From Vitis vinifera (Eukaryota > Streptophyta > Magnoliopsida > Vitales > Vitaceae): 64,000 nucleotides of DNA. Each line of letters begins with the position of its first letter. Position 1 is the stretch's first letter. The stretch lies in the NCBI RefSeq assembly GCF_030704535.1, contig NC_081812.1:19996501-20060500 (forward strand), in the 5' to 3' direction. Position numbers and translations under genes: made by a program. A model generated the notes under the pieces. It saw only the letters and a list, made by a program, of their open reading frames with translations. It was not told the origin of the DNA and ran no database searches. Positions 4,942 to 61,930 of the stretch are shown here, one piece after another.

Positions 4942-6858
4942 CTAGTTTACATTAATGTGCTTGCTGTTGCTTCTCTCTAAACCATCTCTACAAATTTGTG
5001 TTGGCTGGTCCATGGTAGTGGTGGTGTCTTCTGTGGCTGTGGCGGTGGCAGTGACAGTAGCCTTGGATTCTGTTTCTCCCAATTGTAGAATGCCGTTTCC
5101 GGAGGAAGCCATGTTAATCTCAGCTTTATTGGCTTCTTGTCTGAACTTCTTGTAGATATCGCCTTGGTAAAACTTTTTGGTCCGGATCACTAAAATGAAG
5201 GAAATAATGCACCCAAATAGTGTGGCTGCTGTGATTATGATAAAAGACAGTTTGTAACACGCAGCGCCTGTGCAAGTCAAGTCCTGCCCAGCAACCCTAG
5301 TAACACCTGAAGCTTCCAGTTGCTTCAAAGCTTCCTTGTCGTAGAGATGCCCGGCTACTTTGACGTTGAGGATATACGACCCGACCGGACTTGCCACGGC
5401 TCCGAAATTGTACAAAGTGGAGTAGTATTTAAGGCCAAATAATTCTGATATGATGGCGAACACTAGTGGCCACTGGGCTCCAAAGCAGAAGCCGATGATC
5501 ACTGAGGCGAAGTAAAGAGAGTTGGGGACGGCGAAGGCGATGAGAAGATGGCCAACACAAGAGAAAAGAAGAACAAAAGTTAGCATCAGCGGACGGGGGA
5601 ATTTGTATCTTGTCAAGAATATTTCGGAAGCGAAGCCAGACACGACTCGACCCAGATAATTCCATATGCTGACGAGGGATACGAAGGTGGTGGTGCTGTG
5701 GGCCGTGTAGCCCTGTGAACTGCCAATCTGCCCCAAATTGTCGATAGCAGTTAGTGTTCCTCCGACTCCACATGTGGTGACAATGAACAGAATCAACATA
5801 TCAATGCTGAACAGCGCTTGTAGAATGGTGTAGTCCTCGCCTCTGTCTGGTGGCTTGAACATGGTTTTGAAACAAGAAACTGATTTCTCTGCATTTTCTG
5901 GAGCTGCAGTGGGTGGTGGAAGCTGATCCAGTGACACCACAGGGGATGATGCTAGCTCAACCGCAGGTGGATTTTCAGTAATTACTTTCACCTGGGCGGC
6001 GTCCAAGGCTTGTTTCTTACCCTTCCAGATGTTGATTTCCTCTTTGATGACTACAGCAAGCGGAAGAAAGAGTAGGATAAGAACGACAGCAGCACTTCCA
6101 CTATACTCGATTCTGGAGAAGGTAAACTTGTTTTGTATTATGATTATAACCATGAGAAACCCGGCGAGGCCGAGAGACATATAGAGAAGATCATAGAAAA
6201 CCTTGAGCTCGTTTGCTTGCCGACCTACTTTCATGATCCTGATTGTCCGAAGAAACACGAAGGAGACTGCAGCCGGAAGCCAAGCAATGAATAGAATAAG
6301 AGATTTGGAATCATCTCCGTAGAAAGCACGGTAGAGTTGTGTGATGATAGCACCACTCAGACCAACAAATCCCTTCAGAAGGCCCAAAACAATACCTCTG
6401 CTTTCAGGGAAGTTCCTAACACAAGTAACCAACGCTCCGGTATTGGCGAATGATTGGGAATTGGCGCCGATGCATATGTAAAGACACATCTGCCATATCT
6501 GGGGTTTGGCAATGCGGTCGGTGACGGCGAGCCAGATCATGAAATACCCAAAAAAGTTCATAACAGCGCCAATACAGAGAACCACCCAAGGTGGCGTGAC
6601 CTCGTTGATGAGGCCCGAGAGAACCCCAACATTGCCACCCAGGTCCTTGAAGAAGCTCAGCAAATTAAGGGTGGTCTGATCATAACCCAGTGACGTTTTT
6701 ATTTCACCCGAGTACAGACTGAACATGTAAGTTGCACCTGCAACAGACATGATCAGGAGTGAAGCAAAGACCATGAACCATCGCCCCACAAGCACTTGCA
6801 AACCGAATCTCCTCATCCCTCTCCCCCCACCACCACCACTGAACTCAGCCATCCCCAT
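4942..6858 (-). CDS. Nodulin-like / NFD4-like major facilitator protein
   Basis: One uninterrupted frame of 638 residues, read from the ATG at 6858 to the TAG at 4942. The N-terminal half is a Nodulin-like domain (residues about 17-265): [20 protein letters not shown], then [20 protein letters not shown] and a [20 protein letters not shown] segment typical of plant NFD4-related proteins. The C-terminal half (about 345-565) is a second MFS-like block containing [10 protein letters not shown] and [20 protein letters not shown]. About twelve hydrophobic segments are visible, with a hydrophilic loop near 285-340 and a cytosolic-type polar tail rich in Ala-Thr repeats. The family is integral to membranes; members are linked to nuclear fusion, nodulation or small-solute transport, but the substrate cannot be told here. 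The length is normal to slightly long for the family, and intron loss is plausible. The first ATG follows a TATA box at a sensible distance, which supports this start. Confidence 0.9.
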
Positions 6859-6936
6859 GTTTTTCCCACCTCGGGTGTCGATAAATATGCTGGAGCTGAT
6901 CAGTGATGATGATTATTGAGGTTCACAGTGGCCTCA

Positions 6937-10079: not shown

Positions 10080-11363
10080 CAATGTTTTCATAACCAAACC
10101 AGTAATTGAACCAGAAAAGTTACGACTGTAGAATTGGTGACTTCATAAATAATAATTTATATATTATATAAAATTTTAAATAATTCAAAATTTTCATAAT
10201 ATTTCATTTTTATATTTGACATATCAAATTAAATGATAAAGAGAAATATAAATATATTAATATTTTAAATTTTATTAAATAAAACATTTATAATATTTAA
10301 ATATAAAGATATATTTAAAATGAAAAAATATATAATATTTAATTTTATTTGCATGTATTTTGTATATTTTGAAATTATTATATTAATTAATTTATATTAT
10401 TTTTTAATTACATTATATAATTATTATAAAAATAAATGTGAAAGTGTTTTATACTTTTATACAATAAAAAATTGAAAAAAAAATAATTTTGTTATATATT
10501 TTTATTTACAAATATAATACAATGAAAATGTTTCATAACTTAATGGTTAAACTTCAATTTTTACACTTGAAGGTCCCAGCAACTAACTAATCCCATATCG
10601 AAAATGAATAAAAAATATGAATGGATTCTGGGTATAAAAGGTATGCAAGAATTATTGACTTATGAGACTAAAAACTTATTGGGTTTGATGACAAATGGGT
10701 TGGATGATCTCCTCACATAGTGATCTGGTTCCCTTAGGAAATGGGGTTATTTTGGTGCAAAATTCATCAAAATGTTTTTTTGGATTAAAAAAAGAAAGAA
10801 AAAAGTTTTTTTGGCTTATTTATATATATATATATATATATATTGAATTGTCCGATTCGGTAATTCGATTCTAGTTCAACCCTTAGTCAGTTTAATTAAT
10901 CGGATCGAATCAGAATCGTGACCGACCGACAGTCGACCTTCATAACTTAATGGTTAAGCTTCAATTTTTACACTTGAAGGTCCCAGCTCAAGCTCTCTAA
11001 CTTTTAAAAAAAAATTTCTCGCTAACTAATCCCACATTGAAAATGGATAAAAAAAAATATATGTAGGGATTGTGGGTTATAAAAGACATACAAGAATCAA
11101 TAACTTGTAAAACTAAAAACTTAGTGGGCTTGATGACAAATGGGCTATATGAGCTCCTCATAGATTGATTTGGTTCACTTAGGAAACATTGTCATTTTGG
11201 TGCAAAATGCATCAAAATATTTTTTTGGCTTAAAAAAAGAAAAAAAAAAAAAAAAAGGTTGAACTATCTCGTTCGCTGGATTGATTCCGGTTCAACCCTT
11301 GACCAACTTAATTAGTCGAATTGAACTAGAATCAATTAGTTTGGTCTGGTTTTTAAAATCATG
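10080..11363. mobile_element. Non-autonomous DNA transposon with internal tandem duplication
   Basis: The left end begins CAATGTTTTCATAACCAAAC; the right end, reverse-complemented, begins CATGATTTTAAAAACCAGAC. The flanks GTTTTTTT (10072-10079) and GTTTTTCT (11364-11371) agree at seven of eight bases, fitting an 8-bp hAT-like target duplication. End sequences are of the same type as those at 41458-42070. No transposase is encoded. Most of the right part is a 407-bp tandem duplication, described separately. Confidence 0.6.
10532..11346 (+). repeat. 407-bp tandem duplication with promoter-like motifs
   Basis: Two direct copies, 10532-10938 and 10939-11346, both begin TTCATAACTTAATGGTTAA and share many later blocks, for example TTTTACACTTGAAGGTCCCAG and TGATGACAAATGGG. 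Each copy carries a near match to the plant snRNA upstream element RTCCCACATCG (10590-10600 and 11029-11039, one mismatch each) followed by TATAAAAG (10633-10640 and 11079-11086). TAACTTAATGG resembles a Pol III A box, and the second copy has a weak B-box-like GCTCAAGCTC. Confidence 0.75.
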
Positions 11364-14313: not shown

Positions 14314-17300
14314 TCAGTACCGGTCATAGGAAGATGGTCGACCTGCTTTTCTAGAGCGATCATAAGGACCGGGTCTGTCCCTGTAGCTTCCCCTGTCGAA
14401 ACGGGCTGGCCCTCCTCCACTTCCATACTTGTCGCCACCACCTCTGGGTCCTCCTTCCCTATTGTAACCCTTATCCTTGCCGTTGTACCCATTTTGAGTG
14501 TCCCGGTCCATATATCTATCCCCTCCAAAGCGATCACCACCAGGCTGGTACCTGTCATTGTTGTAACGATCACGGCCATACCTGTTGTCTCTGCTATCAG
14601 TGCGCTCCCTATCTCCTCCATAGCGTCCCCCATCAAAATGATCATCATATCGGTCTCCTCCAAAGCGATCGCCACGACCACCTCCACCCCCACCTCCACC
14701 TCCACCAAACTTGGAATGTGAAGAGAATCGGCCACCACCACTGCCAACACCATCACCAGAAGGACAATCCCGCGCCCAATGTCCTGGACGGCCGCACTTA
14801 AAGCAATCATCAGATCGGCCAACTGGCTTATCAACTCCCCTGTAGCTGTCCCTACCACCCAGCATACGATCCCTGCCACCTGGAAAATGATCCCTGCCAC
14901 CAGGGAAATGATCCCTGCCACCTGGCATATGGTCCCGTCCACCAGATATGCGGTCTCTGCCACTTGTCGCGTGGTCTCTGCCACCAGGAGCATGATCCCT
15001 GCCACTTGGCATATGGTCCCTACCATAGCCATATCCTGAATCTTCACTGCCCATTTTTGGCTGTGCCTTGTTTACAGATATTACCCTGCCATCCAACTCC
15101 CGGCCATGCATCTCCCGAATTGCATCTTCCATAGCTCGATGATCTGCAAAGGTTATAAATCCAAACCCGCGAGGACGACCAGTATCTCTTTCCATCATGA
15201 CCTACGCAAACACCAAACATATTGTGAAGTCAAAGGGGGCATTTTCTTGCAGGAGTAGTGAACCAACAAATATCATGGACCCTGTTTATTTTGAAATGAA
15301 ACTACTCCTTTCCCAAATAAAGAGGGCCTAAAACATTTCAGTGTAGCAGATATGCTTCCACAGTTTAAATCATCAACAAATAGACATTTCGAGGGACTAT
15401 TGGTGACTTTGCTGCAGCTCCTCTATTGCATTTCAGATGGCAACCAGAATAATCAGCTAGGAAGACCAACAATTAAATTGTTACACCTCATGTGTGCAAA
15501 ACTGATCGACAATGCAAGAACAAGCCACCTACATACCACAACTCAAAAAATGCATTTTATGGATGAATCTATATTCATATCGGTTTACAGTTTTATCAAA
15601 AAGCACCATTGCAGGTTCTCTCCATCCAAATCAATCACAGGAACAATGGGACATGACACTAGAAACTAGCAGGCTCAGATACGGTAGGCCATAAGAAAAT
15701 ATGCAATCAGGAACCCTTTTCACAAATTTGAAATTCAACTCTGGCCTCCAATAAGACCATCCTGTAAACTGCAGCACATCATCATACTCATTGCAGCCAA
15801 GACAGAAATATAACGCCACTTCAAATTGCAGTCCAGAAAAATCTACTTTGTTTGAACAGAATCTCGTGTAGTCTCACAAAATAGAACTTTAATAGCAAAC
15901 ACCGAATCCTTCATCTAGAAGGAATGGAAAGATAATTAAAGAATGATTCAGGTGCTGCACTGCCACCAGGAAGCCTGACTATGAAAAATATTCAAGATAT
16001 AATACCACGAAGAGAGATTAGATGTCAATCAATGGAAAGGGGGAAAAAAGAACTAATAGCATGTACATGTGAACTGCCATTGTTACTGGTAATTATGTGG
16101 AAGGATATGCACAATAGTAGCATAATACTTTCTGCCATAATAAATCCTCTTTATCATCATATTGCTCACAATCACTCAATATTATTAACACAATAGTAAC
16201 AGTTGTTCCCTAGAGAAGCACTTGAACAGACATAATATTCAAACAAAATCCAGCATGTGAACTGAGCAGGGCATTCATGATTTATCACAAACAAGCTGCA
16301 TCAGAAGATGGGGTTTCTATAGGTGACTCATTCCAAGGAAGTATTTTGCTTCCTTTCTCTGGTGGATAAGTAGTTAGCATCTTGCAATCACTAGCACCCA
16401 GTTTATGACGCATCTTAAACTCCTCTTAAACATTTAAAGTTAGGTAAATCAAAGTACAGACCACACTCATGCTACTCTTCTAATGGGCACAACTAATGAT
16501 AAGCAAGTTTCACATTTAAAAATAAGTGATCCCTGAGAAGGCTTATTGTGAAGTATCTGAAACCAAAAAAAAAAATCCTGAAAAGCATTAAAAATAAATC
16601 TTTTGGACTCTATGATCAGAGACAATGTAGTCAAACGTTATTTGCTTGACATCTATAGAAACCAACTTACTTTCGTGTTCAAACATGACTGTGCATCCCA
16701 TTTGAAATAACAATCAGAATCTTTTTCATTAAATTGATATAAATGACAGTCCTCAAGGCAACATCTGAAGGCAGGCCAAGTACCCACTAGTGTAATACTT
16801 CACTTTTCTTTTTCAAAAAATACAAAAGCCCCAATTTTGACATATAAATAGTTGGTATTATGGAAAAGGACAGCCATCTAGCAAGCAACAGCTTAAGAAT
16901 TGGTTAATCAGTTCTCAGCCACATCATTAAATAAAATCTGGAACAGTGTGAGAATTCCTAATAGACCTCAAAGCATAGTTATTATTGCGAATAAGGATCA
17001 CTCCAACAATAGCAAACATAATATACAAAATGGAAAACCGAGCATCTAACCATACAACAGTCTGCAGACTCAACACATTACAGACTACATGTCATTGGTT
17101 TATTAAATTATTCCTCAGCCTGCATATATGTACACACACACTTCTTGTGCAGCCAAAATTGCAAACTAAGGTGTAATTTGCACACACTTCTTGTTTTCTG
17201 TTTTGAAAACAAAATATAGTAACAATTCCAATATCAAATTTAAGAACTCTTATAGACTTATCATAAAAAGATAATTTTCAAGAACTGTTTAAAAAAAAAT

Positions 17301-18109
17301 CAAAGGTATCAAAAATTTTAGAGCTTTTTTGGCCATGCAATTTAAAAACAGTTTTCTGTCTTTCAAAACAATAAATTGTTTTTAAAAATTTCTAACACTA
17401 TTTGCTGTTATTCTCTAGAAACAATTTTTAATAACAAAGTAAATAGAGAACAATTTTTAGAAAACAAATAGGAGTCGTTTTCTTTAGTTTTTAAAAACAA
17501 AAGGAAAACATGAACTTGTTTGGCCATGTTTTCTCAAACTTATTTTTAAAAACTCTATTTTATTTAAAACAAATTTCAGAAAACATGGCCAAACTTGCCC
17601 ATACGAGCCCATACTAACTCAAATTTTAAAATTTGTAAAATCAATTTTTAAGAACATAAGGTAAGTACATATTTATGGGACAATGCAAGGAAATATTTCC
17701 TTTTTTATTGCATTAATGGGGCAATCCTCAAACCCACAAAAAGGACACATGACTGAGCTACAATCGTTAACATCACACAAAAGGAAAACATTGCCAAAAA
17801 ATATATATGCCACAGGCATTGGGCTCCGTGATGATAAAATAATGCACAAAGTCATCCAAATTTTTACAAGAAACGAGCAGATTAACAAATTGACCTAATC
17901 AATTAACATGAAAAAATGCCAGAAAAACATACAAGTCTTAGTCTTTACTTTTCTAGGAAACCAAACAAGATGGGGGACTGATGAAAGAAACATCATACCA
18001 GGGACTCGAGAATTTTTCCGTATCGACTGAAGGCATCTTCAAGATGCCTCTCCGAAGTGTTCCAACCCAATCCTCCCACGAATATGCGATTCTCTTCTCT
18101 ACCGCCCAT
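14314..18109 (-). CDS. RZ-1-type glycine-rich RNA-binding protein (RRM + CCHC zinc knuckle)
   Basis: Two coding exons, 18109-17999 and 15201-14314, join in phase 0 across a 2.8-kb GT-AG intron to give 332 residues. The RRM occupies about residues 8-83, with RNP2 IFVGGL at 9-14 in exon 1 and RNP1 RGFGFITF at 48-55 in exon 2. Nine GRD-based heptads (about 97-159) follow, then a CCHC knuckle [14 protein letters not shown] (Cys170, Cys173, His178, Cys183), and an RGG/RD-rich low-complexity tail. This order is that of the Arabidopsis RZ-1B/RZ-1C family, nuclear proteins affecting pre-mRNA splicing with SR proteins; the first Arabidopsis relative, RZ-1A, is cold-associated. Only the heptad block seems expanded. 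The ATG lies just after a 5' UTR intron and begins the conserved [14 protein letters not shown] stretch. Confidence 0.93.
14836..15024 (-). repeat. In-frame 21-nt coding minisatellite, nine units
   Basis: Nine consecutive heptads, all starting Gly-Arg-Asp, such as [21 protein letters not shown] and GRDHFPG (twice in a row), lie between the RRM and the zinc knuckle of the RZ-1-like protein. Because the unit is a multiple of three, the reverse strand and other frames also stay open, creating spurious antisense frames. Confidence 0.9.
17518..17594. repeat. Short perfect inverted repeat in the RZ-1 intron
   Basis: GTTTGGCCATGTTTTCT at 17518-17534 is perfectly inverted at 17578-17594 with a 43-bp AT-rich loop. 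A related TTTGGCCATG motif lies near 17329. It looks like the end of a small MITE or its internal palindrome in the AT-rich stretch 17200-17600. Confidence 0.6.
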
Positions 18110-18815: not shown

Positions 18816-18831
18816 TTGAACTATAAAATTG
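18816..18831 (-). terminator. Plant snRNA 3'-end box of the U5 gene
   Basis: The minus strand reads CA, seven bases, then AGTTCAA. This fits the plant snRNA 3' processing consensus CA(N)3-10AGTNNAA exactly and lies a few bases after the terminal stem-loop of the U5 RNA. Confidence 0.85.
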
Positions 18832-18833
18832 TA

Positions 18834-18953
18834 GGGGTCATCCAATGAGGATGCACCCTCCAAAAATAGGCGTATGCCGCTGCTTGCGGCGCGCACACGG
18901 TATTCTTTAGTAAAAGGCGAAAGAATAGTTCGCTTTGTGCTCACCGCGCGGCT
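18834..18953 (-). ncRNA. U5: U5 spliceosomal snRNA
   Basis: About 120 nt beginning AGCCGCGCGG. It contains the invariant U5 loop 1 sequence CGCCTTTTACTAAAG (18905-18919 on the plus strand as its complement), closed by the TTCTTT/AAAGAA stem. It then has an Sm-binding site ATTTTTGG (18860-18867) and a terminal hairpin GGGT-GCATCC/GGATG-ACCC. U5 aligns exon ends in the spliceosome through loop 1. Upstream, an exact USE and a TATA box are 34 bp apart, the spacing of Pol II-type plant snRNA genes, and an exact 3' box follows. All required parts are intact, so it looks functional rather than a pseudogene. The 5' end is uncertain by about four bases (18953 or 18957). Confidence 0.95.
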
Positions 18954-18981
18954 GCGTGATTTACTTTGGAAAATGAAATGG

Positions 18982-18989
18982 CTTATATA
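18982..18989 (-). promoter_or_regulatory. TATA box of the U5 snRNA gene
   Basis: TATATAAG on the minus strand, starting 36 bp before the proposed RNA start at 18953, or 32 bp before the alternative start at 18957. Confidence 0.85.
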
Positions 18990-19023
18990 GGAAGCTTTCA
19001 TGTTTGGTTTTCTCACTTGGAAG

Positions 19024-19034
19024 CGATGTGGGAC
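19024..19034 (-). promoter_or_regulatory. Upstream sequence element (USE) of the U5 snRNA gene
   Basis: GTCCCACATCG on the minus strand matches the plant snRNA USE consensus RTCCCACATCG at every position. It lies 34 bp from the TATA box, the spacing that specifies RNA polymerase II rather than III in plants. Confidence 0.92.
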
Positions 19035-20333: not shown

Positions 20334-23300
20334 ATGGACTACGATGCCAAGAGAGTGGAAGAAGGCTTGGGCCATGTTCACAAAGAAGATATCAGCGAGA
20401 AAGCAGATAAGATCGAGAAAGATGAGAGTAGCGCAACACCAGCCCAGTCGGTGGAACAGAAGGGGGAGGAGCAGCCTCTTATAAAGCAGAAAAGCAAGAG
20501 GGTGGCAACCTTGGATGCGTTCAGAGGCCTCACCATAGTGGTAAGCATAAGCCGTAAGTATTATACAGTAGAAAAACGAATTATCAAAGATATGGTTTAG
20601 GTTTCGTTGTTGTAATAAGAATGAGGATGTGTGCAGCTGATGATATTGGTGGACGATGCTGGGGGATCATATGCGCGTATTGATCACTCACCGTGGAATG
20701 GGTGCACACTGGCAGACTTTGTGATGCCATTTTTTCTCTTCATTGTAGGGGTCGCAGTCGCCCTTGCTCTCAAGGTTTACAATTTCTTACAACACCTGAT
20801 GCCACTTCCAAACAAAACGTTATAGCCTAGGAATGCAACCCTCCAGCACACAAAAGATACTCCCGGATCACGGATCAATGCATTAAAAATACTTCTTTCT
20901 CTTTCACTCTAAATCTAAGAGTCTTTAGTAGTAATTCTATAAAATGATTCTAATATTTCTAATACTTAGAATTATAAAAATTTTCAAATGTTGAAAATAC
21001 GAAAAACGTTTTTTAAAATCACTATCAAATAAGTTCTAAACAATTATTAACATGCGATTGTCACGTCTATGTATCGATTAAAATTATGTTTGGTTATCTA
21101 ATAGTACTAAGAAATGAAAAAAAAATTGATATAAAAAATAGTTTTCTTATATCTAATTTTAGTATAAAAAATATTAAAGAAAATAAAATATAATTCAAAT
21201 TAGTTAAAATTTTATATAATTTTAAATTATTTAAATTTTTATACTATAAAAAAAATAAAGTATATGAGTTTGAAGAAATATATAAAAATAATTTATTGAC
21301 TTAAAATTTTTTTTTTCTTCCTTCTATTTTTCTTTTCTATTTATTTTTTCCTCAAATTTTTTTAAAACCAAACATAGCCATAGGGGAATTTTCATAGGAA
21401 AAAAATGCATCATTTTTTTTATGAATGATCACATTAATATGGTTTTGATTTAACAAAAAAATCCAAGATGAGCAATGAGAAATTTTAAACTATTAACTAT
21501 CAAGTATAACATAGGATATGTTGGTTTCGCAAAAAGTAAATAATTTTCTTATATTTGGTTTTATTCTGGAAAATCGGAGATTAACAAATAAGCCTATCAT
21601 GATGCAATTAGTCCAATAATAACCTTTGAGATTGATGTTTCAGAAAATTCCGAGGATAAGTCTAGCAGTCAAGAAGATTTCCCTAAGGACACTGAAGCTT
21701 CTTTTCTGGGGAATTCTTTTGCAAGGTATCCATAGTGTTATCATTACTATATTTATCCATTTTTAATGACTTTCCCTTTTTCTTCTTTCACTCTCTCTCT
21801 CTCTCTCTCTGGGCTAAGTTGTATGTCATTAACATAATGTAGGAGGATACTCTCATGCCCCTGATGATCTGTCTTATGGAGTTGACATGAAGCATATCCG
21901 ATGGTTCGGCATCCTCCAGGTCTTCCCTTTACCTTTGTTTACTGGAAAGTCCATCCCAAGTTCAAGTTTATCTGGATTCCTTCAGGTAGTGGAATGTTCT
22001 TAAGCCATAGCATTCATACAGTACTCACCATTTTTCTTGTGTGTATATGCAGAGAATTGCAGTAGTGTACTTTGTTGTGGCTCTCATAGAGACACTAACC
22101 ACCAAGCGCAGACCAACTGTCATAGACTCTGGACATTTCTCCATTTTGTCAGCATATAAATGGCAATGGTAAATAAGCACTTCTATTCCAATCAATATTA
22201 AGACTGTGACCGTCTCCGGGGGTTCGAAATTATTTAGTTTGCAATAATAATTGGTGAATTCATGGCACAGGATTGGGGGATTTGTGGCATTTCTTATTTA
22301 CATGATCACAACGTATGCACTATATGTTCCAGACTGGAGTTTTGTGATAGACCAGGATCACGAAGCAAAGAGATACACAGTATGTATTAACTATTAACTG
22401 GCTTTTTGCTACCATTTCTATTATACTTGTAGCTAGTGAAACTGACTGTTTTAATTTTCAGGTAAAATGTGGGATGAGAGGACACTTGGGACCTGCATGC
22501 AATGCAGTTGGTTACGTCGATAGACAAGTATGGGGCATTAATCATCTCTACTCGCAGCCTGTTTGGACGCGCTTGAAGGTTGGATAAACTGGATAGAGTG
22601 GGGAAAAACCACTTTTTTCACATACCAATCAAGCATTAATAACTACTCATTGGGTGTTTTCTCCTTGACATATAGGCTTGCACTCTTAGTTCTCCAAACT
22701 CTGGCCCTTTTCGTGAGGACGCTCCAAGTTGGTGCTATGCTCCATTTGAGCCTGAAGGCCTGTTGAGGTGTGTTGATTTGTAGTAAACAACTTCATACTA
22801 GAAAACAGAAGAAAAAAAGGCACTATGAACTGATTTGGATTTAATTTGCTACTGGTTTTTCTTAGTACAATTTCAGCTATCCTCTCAGGCACCATCGGCA
22901 TCCATTACGGACATGTTTTGATTCATTTTAAGGTTATAAACTTCAGATTACGAATAACAGTGCCTGTTGAGCATTAAACATTGAGCTCGTGAGGGATAAT
23001 AGAAGTGGGTTCTTTTGCAGGGTCACGCTGAAAGGCTCAAGCAATGGGTTTCAATGGGAATTGTCTTGCTTATTGTAGCCATCATTCTTCATTTTACAGA
23101 TGGTAAGCTCCCCTGCCTTTGTCCTGGCCCTGAGTAGGATGTATCTTTAACACAAAATCTCAACCATATATTAGTTGGAGAGTATTAATTAATTCAGAAA
23201 GTTCCATTTCTCCACTGGTTTGCAGCTATTCCCATCAACAAACAGCTCTATAGCTTCAGCTATGTTTGTTTCACAGCGGGTGCAGCTGGAATTGTACTCT

Positions 23301-60369: not shown

Positions 60370-61930
60370 CTAGGATGTAACCCTAAAAAAATAACCTACA
60401 GAATATATGAATGAATTTTATGTCTTGTTTCACTATTCTGAACATGGTATCAGAGCAGGTTCAACTCTAACCCTAGCCACCTTTTAGTCTTGGTGATCCT
60501 TTTTTTTCCTTTTTCAGTCCTAGTTTGTTTGTTGTGAGGGTAGATCAATCCCCTCTTGTGTGATTGATCACTTTGTGCCTTTGTGTTTGAGGATGTGTGC
60601 CTTGTGGTAATTGTATTTGTGATTCAAGATGAGGGATAACATTTTTACTTCAGATCTACGTGTTTCTGTTGGTACAACAGTGAAGTTTAATGGAAGAAAT
60701 TATACTCTTTGGTCCCAAGTTTTTGTACTTTCCTGGGTTCACAAGGTTGTGACCATTATCTTAGCTGATAAAATGTTGGATCCTAAGGATTCCGAGTATG
60801 CAGCATGGTGTCAGTATGATGGTCTAGTGAAGACATGGATGTTGAATTCCTTGGAACCTGAGATTGCTGCTTCTGTTGGTCTGACATCAACTGCTAAAAA
60901 GATGTGGGATGACATCAAAGAGATGTTTTCTAATGATGGTAATAATTCTCGTATATTCTCTTTGTTTCAACAACTGGTAGATAATAAAGAAGGTGAAAGG
61001 TCCCTTCCAGAATTCTTTGCTGCCTATAGAGGGATTATCAATGAATTACGTGAGCTTCTACCCCTTTCTACAGATTTAGACTCAGAAGTGTCAAGGGGAA
61101 AACCTATTTGTATGTGGTTTTTTAATGAATCTAAATGAATAGTATAACACTCTTAGGAGTCAATTGCTTGGGGACAGTGCCATGCCTACGCTTTAGTCTG
61201 CTTTCTCTCGCCTACAATTTGCTTTTCTAACCTTGTCCTCCCTTGGTGTGGATCTTAAGTATTTTGCCATGGTTGCATGTGGCTGTGTGCGTGACACTAG
61301 AAAGAGCAAAAATCATGATGGGTTATGTGAGTTTTGTGGTAAACGAGGGCACATTGTGGATTGATGTTGGGATAAGCATGGTAAGCCCGATTGGGCTACC
61401 AAAGGTGCTAAGTTGTCCAATTTCCAACATCCCTAAAGTAGCAAATGTTACACTTGCTTTTAATGGATCTACTTCTTTTTCAACTGTTCCTAAGGATGTT
61501 ATTCAGATCTCTAAGGAGGAGTATGGTAGGTTGCTTCATTCTTAACCAAGTTCTATTGCCTCCCATGCCCTCTAGTCAGGTACTGGGGCACTTGGTGCCT
61601 TATCTTGTAATTCTTGGTTAATAGATTTAGGTGCATCAAATCATATGACTGGTGACCAGCATCAATTGAACAACTTCACACCTTGTCAGTCTCTTTAACT
61701 TATTACTGTTGCTGATGGTTTTGTTTCTAATGTGTGTGGTTTTGATACTATTCATACTTCCTCTCTTGAGCTCAACCCAGTCTTACATGTCCCAAAATTG
61801 TCATTTAATCTTTTTTTCTGTTAATCAAATTACAAAATCTTTGAATTGTTCTGTGACTTTCTTTCCTACTCATTGTATTTTTCATGATTTCCAAACCAAT
61901 ACAGTGAGTGGATCCGACTTTGAGTTAGGA
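60205..61930 (+). mobile_element. Copia-type LTR retroelement fossil (5' part)
   Basis: A presumed 5' LTR at about 60205-60444, with a TA microsatellite inside, is followed directly by the TGGTATCAGAGC primer-binding site for initiator tRNA-Met. Then come a gag region (about 60.6-61.4 kb, UBN2/Copia gag type with a zinc-knuckle segment) and the start of a protease-like region. Most of pol and the 3' LTR are absent. The element is broken, with several breaks and a large loss. It inserted into a copy of the 48-bp repeat family. Age: not recent. Confidence 0.8.

Follow-up and report, generated by a model that had tools for sequence, protein, structure and literature searches.

An intact-looking U5 snRNA gene in a 64-kb stretch of the grapevine genome, compared with the other U5 loci of the same assembly

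We analysed a 64-kb stretch of grapevine DNA (hereafter the window) and found, at 18816–19034 on its minus strand, what its sequence indicates with near certainty to be a plant U5 snRNA gene that looks intact, U5 being a small RNA of the splicing machinery. The gene is real and of a known kind, and it is ordinary in that the genome has about ten U5 copies, this one included, of intact appearance.

The U5 gene, its promoter and its 3′ box

To identify structured RNAs, we scanned the whole 64-kb window with Rfam 15, and U5 was the only match above its curated cut-off. The U5 model (RF00020) aligned to the minus strand from 18953 to 18836 over model positions 1–117 of 117, with a score of 85.8 bits against a cut-off of 40 (E 2.3e-13). 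The earlier note had read the segment as a complete U5 snRNA gene and had proposed a covariance search as the check, a poor score counting against it; the score obtained was not poor, and the full-model match, together with the presence of all elements in order on the minus strand, bears the reading out. The elements are as follows.

19024–19034, minus strand: USE GTCCCACATCG, exact, one occurrence in the window
18983–18989, minus strand: TATA box TATATAA, separated from the USE by a 34-bp spacer
18834–18953, minus strand: U5 snRNA, with a predicted mature length of about 120 nt (RF00020 match with the 3′ end extended to 18834; both ends predicted)
18905–18923, minus strand: loop-1 region CTTTCGCCTTTTACTAAAG, the same in all ten high-scoring copies of the genome
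18876–18890, minus strand: GCCGC-AAGCA-GCGGC, which pairing probabilities and a ten-copy alignment assign to the standard 5′ stem as the 3′ strands of its inner and outer parts
18860–18867, minus strand: Sm site ATTTTTGG, after which the 3′ hairpin follows
18835–18858, minus strand: 3′ terminal hairpin of nine pairs with one bulged G, in the predicted fold
18816–18831, minus strand: 3′ box CAATTTTATAGTTCAA, exact, two bases beyond 18834

The predicted 3′ end was put at 18834 because the extension from 18836 completes the 3′ hairpin. Loop 1 (GCCUUUUAC) is intact on its stem, which is paired in 10 of 10 high-scoring copies. Identity to the RF00020 consensus line is 70/117, and 26 of the 30 consensus pairs are kept in the window copy (14 identical, 1 altered on one side and 11 altered on both). 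The four broken pairs comprise one A-G in the 5′ stem, a position at which five of the ten copies carry A-U, and three basal pairs of the 3′ hairpin, where the window copy pairs in a register other than that of the Rfam consensus.

U2-U5 pairs occur in plants. No second snRNA was detected in the 64-kb window, where U5 was the sole Rfam family above cut-off, and the six further matches obtained at E values of up to 5 were to sub-threshold miRNA, snoRNA and sRNA families, with no spliceosomal RNA among them. A BLAST search (E 0.01) found no other U5 pieces in the window, and the U5 loop pattern, with up to three mismatches allowed, occurred there a single time. The same pattern had no occurrence in viral contigs and two in bacterial genomes, roughly the chance level for 257 billion bases by our own estimate.

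In plants, a TATA box about 33–34 bp after the USE characterizes Pol II-type snRNA genes, the distance in the Pol III type being about ten less. For the USE we used the consensus RTCCCACATCG, taken in part from the earlier note; the available text of PMC545797 prints it one C shorter. An exact USE arose at a rate of 0.013 per window in 150 first-order Markov windows, and none of the 150 contained an exact USE with TATAWA at 33–35 bp, the combination that the earlier note had reported at 34 bp and that is indeed present here. The predicted RNA start, A18953, lies 36 bases from the start of the TATA box. A Pol II-type plant snRNA gene is thus the best reading of the USE, the TATA box at 34 bp and the 3′ box, and the 12 other U5 loci of the genome agree with it. 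When one mismatch was allowed, the USE matched four times in the window, compared with 0.66 expected. On the plus strand at 10530–11250 lies a repeat of two copies, about 80–83% identical and 445 bp apart, each with a near-USE of one mismatch (10590 and 11029) and a TATA 32 or 38 bp later; a 49-nt stretch common to both precedes each copy. Rfam detected no snRNA in this repeat. Because of these near-USE/TATA sites, USE and TATA alone are not fully specific.

The definition CA(N)3-10AGTNNAA, described as the 3′ box or termination signal of Pol II snRNA genes in the available text of PMC5079582 and PMC545797, is satisfied just past the predicted RNA end. The exact box that had been claimed is therefore there, while the weight given to it did not hold: the pattern, when its gap is set to 7 bases, was found 17 times in the window, where 15.5 would be expected, and thus counts through its position alone.

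By analogy with the family, the USE and the Pol II-spaced TATA box would direct RNA polymerase II to start near 18953, and the 3′ box would direct cleavage near 18834, a step that the accessible part of PMC5079582 attributes to the DSP1/CPSF73-I complex. Sm proteins would bind AUUUUUGG, and the RNA would enter the U5 snRNP, where loop 1 would contact exon ends.

The U5 loci of the genome

We scanned the assembly (495,616,077 bases in 21 contigs; C followed by a number denotes a contig, and the window is C8:19996501-20060500) and found 13 U5 loci above the RF00020 cut-off among the best 46 candidates scored, ten of them with 85.8–97.6 bits and three with 50.2–57.9 bits. The window copy ranked tenth, and BLAST with the window gene found the same 13 places as the covariance search. 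Identity to the window U5 ranged from 87.2% (C17) to 61.9% (C18). Arabidopsis U5 genes are likewise multicopy, numbering 14, and all are reported with a USE and a TATA box in the available text of the ASRG survey (PMC545797).

The USE was exact in nine of the ten high-scoring loci and had one mismatch in C13. TATATAA or TATAAAA was found 30–42 bases past the USE in 8 of the 13 loci (the window, C6 three times, C17, C11, C15 and C5); the remaining TATA regions read TATATAT in C13, AATATAA in C6 (21093 kb) and CATATAA in C18, and were weak in C1 and C19. Within the 30 bases scanned, AGTNNAA was exact in three of the 13 loci (the window, C17 and C1) and the full 3′ box in the window copy only. 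The closest relative, C17:1743637-1743755, shares with the window copy the GCCGC/GCGGC outer stem letters, an exact USE and TATATAA, and BLAST similarity runs into its 3′ flank; it differs in its 3′ hairpin letters and in having AGTTCAA with no CA at the required distance.

The three low-scoring loci look damaged. Loop 1 is altered in C19 and C5, and C18, with loop 1 intact, has extra sequence between the stem and the Sm site and an ATTTTTGAAGGG stretch only beyond the model end. They nevertheless keep the USE, exactly in C5 and with one mismatch in C18 and C19, a retention that would fit a recently silenced pseudogene at the window locus, with intact-looking parts and no transcription. Also in favour of such silencing are the multicopy nature of U5, which means that single copies can be lost, and the rank of the window copy, below which none of the other high-scoring loci falls. 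However, its promoter, RNA and 3′ elements all remain intact, it alone of the 13 loci has the full 3′ box in exact form, and we consider silencing very unlikely.

The 5′ stem

The preferred reading, an ordinary U5 gene, was also evaluated at the level of RNA structure. The RNA from 18953 to 18836 folded with an energy of −43.6 kcal/mol (z −2.78), and 1 of 200 shuffles was as stable. The earlier note had described an extra GCCGC/GCGGC mini-hairpin, possibly specific to this variant, between the 5′ stem and the Sm site; our results assign these letters to the standard 5′ stem instead. GCCGC occupies RNA positions 64–68 and GCGGC positions 74–78, and their 5′ stem partners lie within positions 7–12 and 2–6, respectively. 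Pairing probabilities were 0.960–0.963 for the outer stem and 0.979–0.996 for the inner stem, as compared with 0.004 for the mini-hairpin, and forcing the latter carried a penalty of 3.5 kcal/mol and undid the loop-1 stem.

Covariation was evaluated on an alignment of ten high-scoring U5 copies of the same genome, with 500 shuffles. Of the long, internally looped 5′ stem expected of a U5 RNA, the outer helix was paired in 50 of 50 cells, with three of its five pairs changed on both sides, and the inner helix in 92.7% of cells. Over the whole 5′ domain (27 pairs), 97.0% of the 270 cells paired, a value that fell to 55.0% or less when partners were slid by 1–3 columns and that none of the 500 shuffles reached (shuffled mean 93.9%). 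Likewise, no shuffle reached the covariation score of the domain or its 14 cells with changes on both sides. Two further measures did not go beyond the shuffles and, like the A-G mismatch of the window copy, count against the preferred reading, namely the number of pairs altered on both sides (5, shuffled mean 3.4, reached by 65/500) and that of further pair types (10, shuffled mean 11.8, reached by 498/500). The letters of the mini-hairpin are complementary and paired in 41 of 50 cells, and 8/500 shuffles attained their covariation score; this complementarity arises because the 5′ strand GCCGCGCGG is near-palindromic, and the letters are not specific to the window copy, since C17 has them too. 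A structural U5 variant whose function is altered by the extra hairpin is, against the energetic cost and the fully paired standard helix, hardly credible at all.

Neighbouring genes and the age of the locus

Two predicted protein-coding genes lie downstream of U5 and are oriented like it.

14314–18109, minus strand: predicted RZ-1-type gene, with exon 1 at 18109–17999 and exon 2 at 15201–14314, an in-frame join and GT-AG borders
4942–6912, minus strand: NFD4-like gene (PF06813), about 12 kb downstream of U5

The start codon of the nearer gene is 725 bp downstream of the predicted U5 end. Its predicted protein of 332 residues combines an RRM_1 domain with a CCHC zinc knuckle, and we take its family to be that of the RZ-1-type glycine-rich RNA-binding proteins. 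Exon 2 contains a 21-bp tandem repeat. Within the intron, ARAGORN called a tRNA-SeC at 17161–17241 (minus strand); as Rfam gave no tRNA at 17161–17241 and selenocysteine use is not known in land plants, the call is probably false. The intron also holds an A/T-rich foldback at 17496–17618 (minus strand) that matches three plant miRNA families below threshold and looks like a small inverted-repeat element. Elsewhere in the window, a reading frame at 60623–61138 (plus strand) carries a copia-type gag domain (PF14223, at cut-off).

In Arabidopsis, RZ-1B and RZ-1C promote FLC splicing, according to the available part of a review (PMC6928127). The ASRG survey lists, for Arabidopsis, 395 protein genes related to splicing, 74 snRNA genes and, in its available text (PMC545797), no splicing-related gene beside any snRNA gene, in contrast with the RZ-1-type neighbour of the window U5. 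From these counts we estimate that one or a few splicing-related neighbours of snRNA genes would be expected by chance, and the pairing is therefore a small curiosity. No RZ-1 match was obtained around the other 12 U5 loci (E 0.001; ~10 kb on each side, except contig 6 21104900-21121000). Position and orientation would allow the two genes to be a coupled pair in which failed 3′-box cleavage leads to readthrough into the RZ-1-type gene, an arrangement that we regard as highly improbable; if it were true, the state of snRNA processing would tune a splicing regulator. A literature search for Arabidopsis snRNA transcripts that read through into protein-coding genes behind them found nothing.

The NFD4-like gene has counterparts near U5 copies on contig 6. 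Four copies, in two pairs within 44 kb, lie there on the plus strand at 21091, 21094, 21132 and 21135 kb, and are interleaved between 21.09 and 21.16 Mb with nodulin-like (NFD4-type) genes that share their orientation; the plus-strand matches to these are at 21102 kb (broken by stops), ~21142 kb (partial) and 21151 and 21158 kb (open frames). On contig 13, the nodulin-like cluster is at 6.76–6.90 Mb and the U5 copy is elsewhere, at 2.198 Mb, flanked by ankyrin/PGG-type and ketoacyl-CoA-synthase-like frames. Weak evidence comes from C11, where a nodulin-like gene, ~33% identical, lies 7 kb from the U5 copy and on the opposite strand.

The linkage common to contigs 8 and 6 suggests an old locus. 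Since grape chromosomes 6, 8 and 13 form one of the ancient triplicated sets, the simplest reading, which relies on one gene family, is that U5 and NFD4-type genes were already linked before the triplication, that contigs 8 and 6 inherited this linkage and that the contig 13 cluster lost its U5 copy. The contig 6 copies are 76–78% identical to the window copy, as compared with 87% for C17, and are thus not its nearest relatives, which disfavours the pre-triplication reading unless the copies have been homogenised.

Taken together, our results add the location of one intact-looking U5 copy, belonging to a sort of gene that protein-based annotation overlooks, and nothing in them should surprise a specialist. 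The comparison of 13 loci within one genome supports the 5′ stem of U5 through compensatory changes and shows that just one of them matches the strict 3′ box consensus exactly. The linkage of U5 with NFD4-type genes on contigs 8 and 6 offers a means of dating plant U5 loci.
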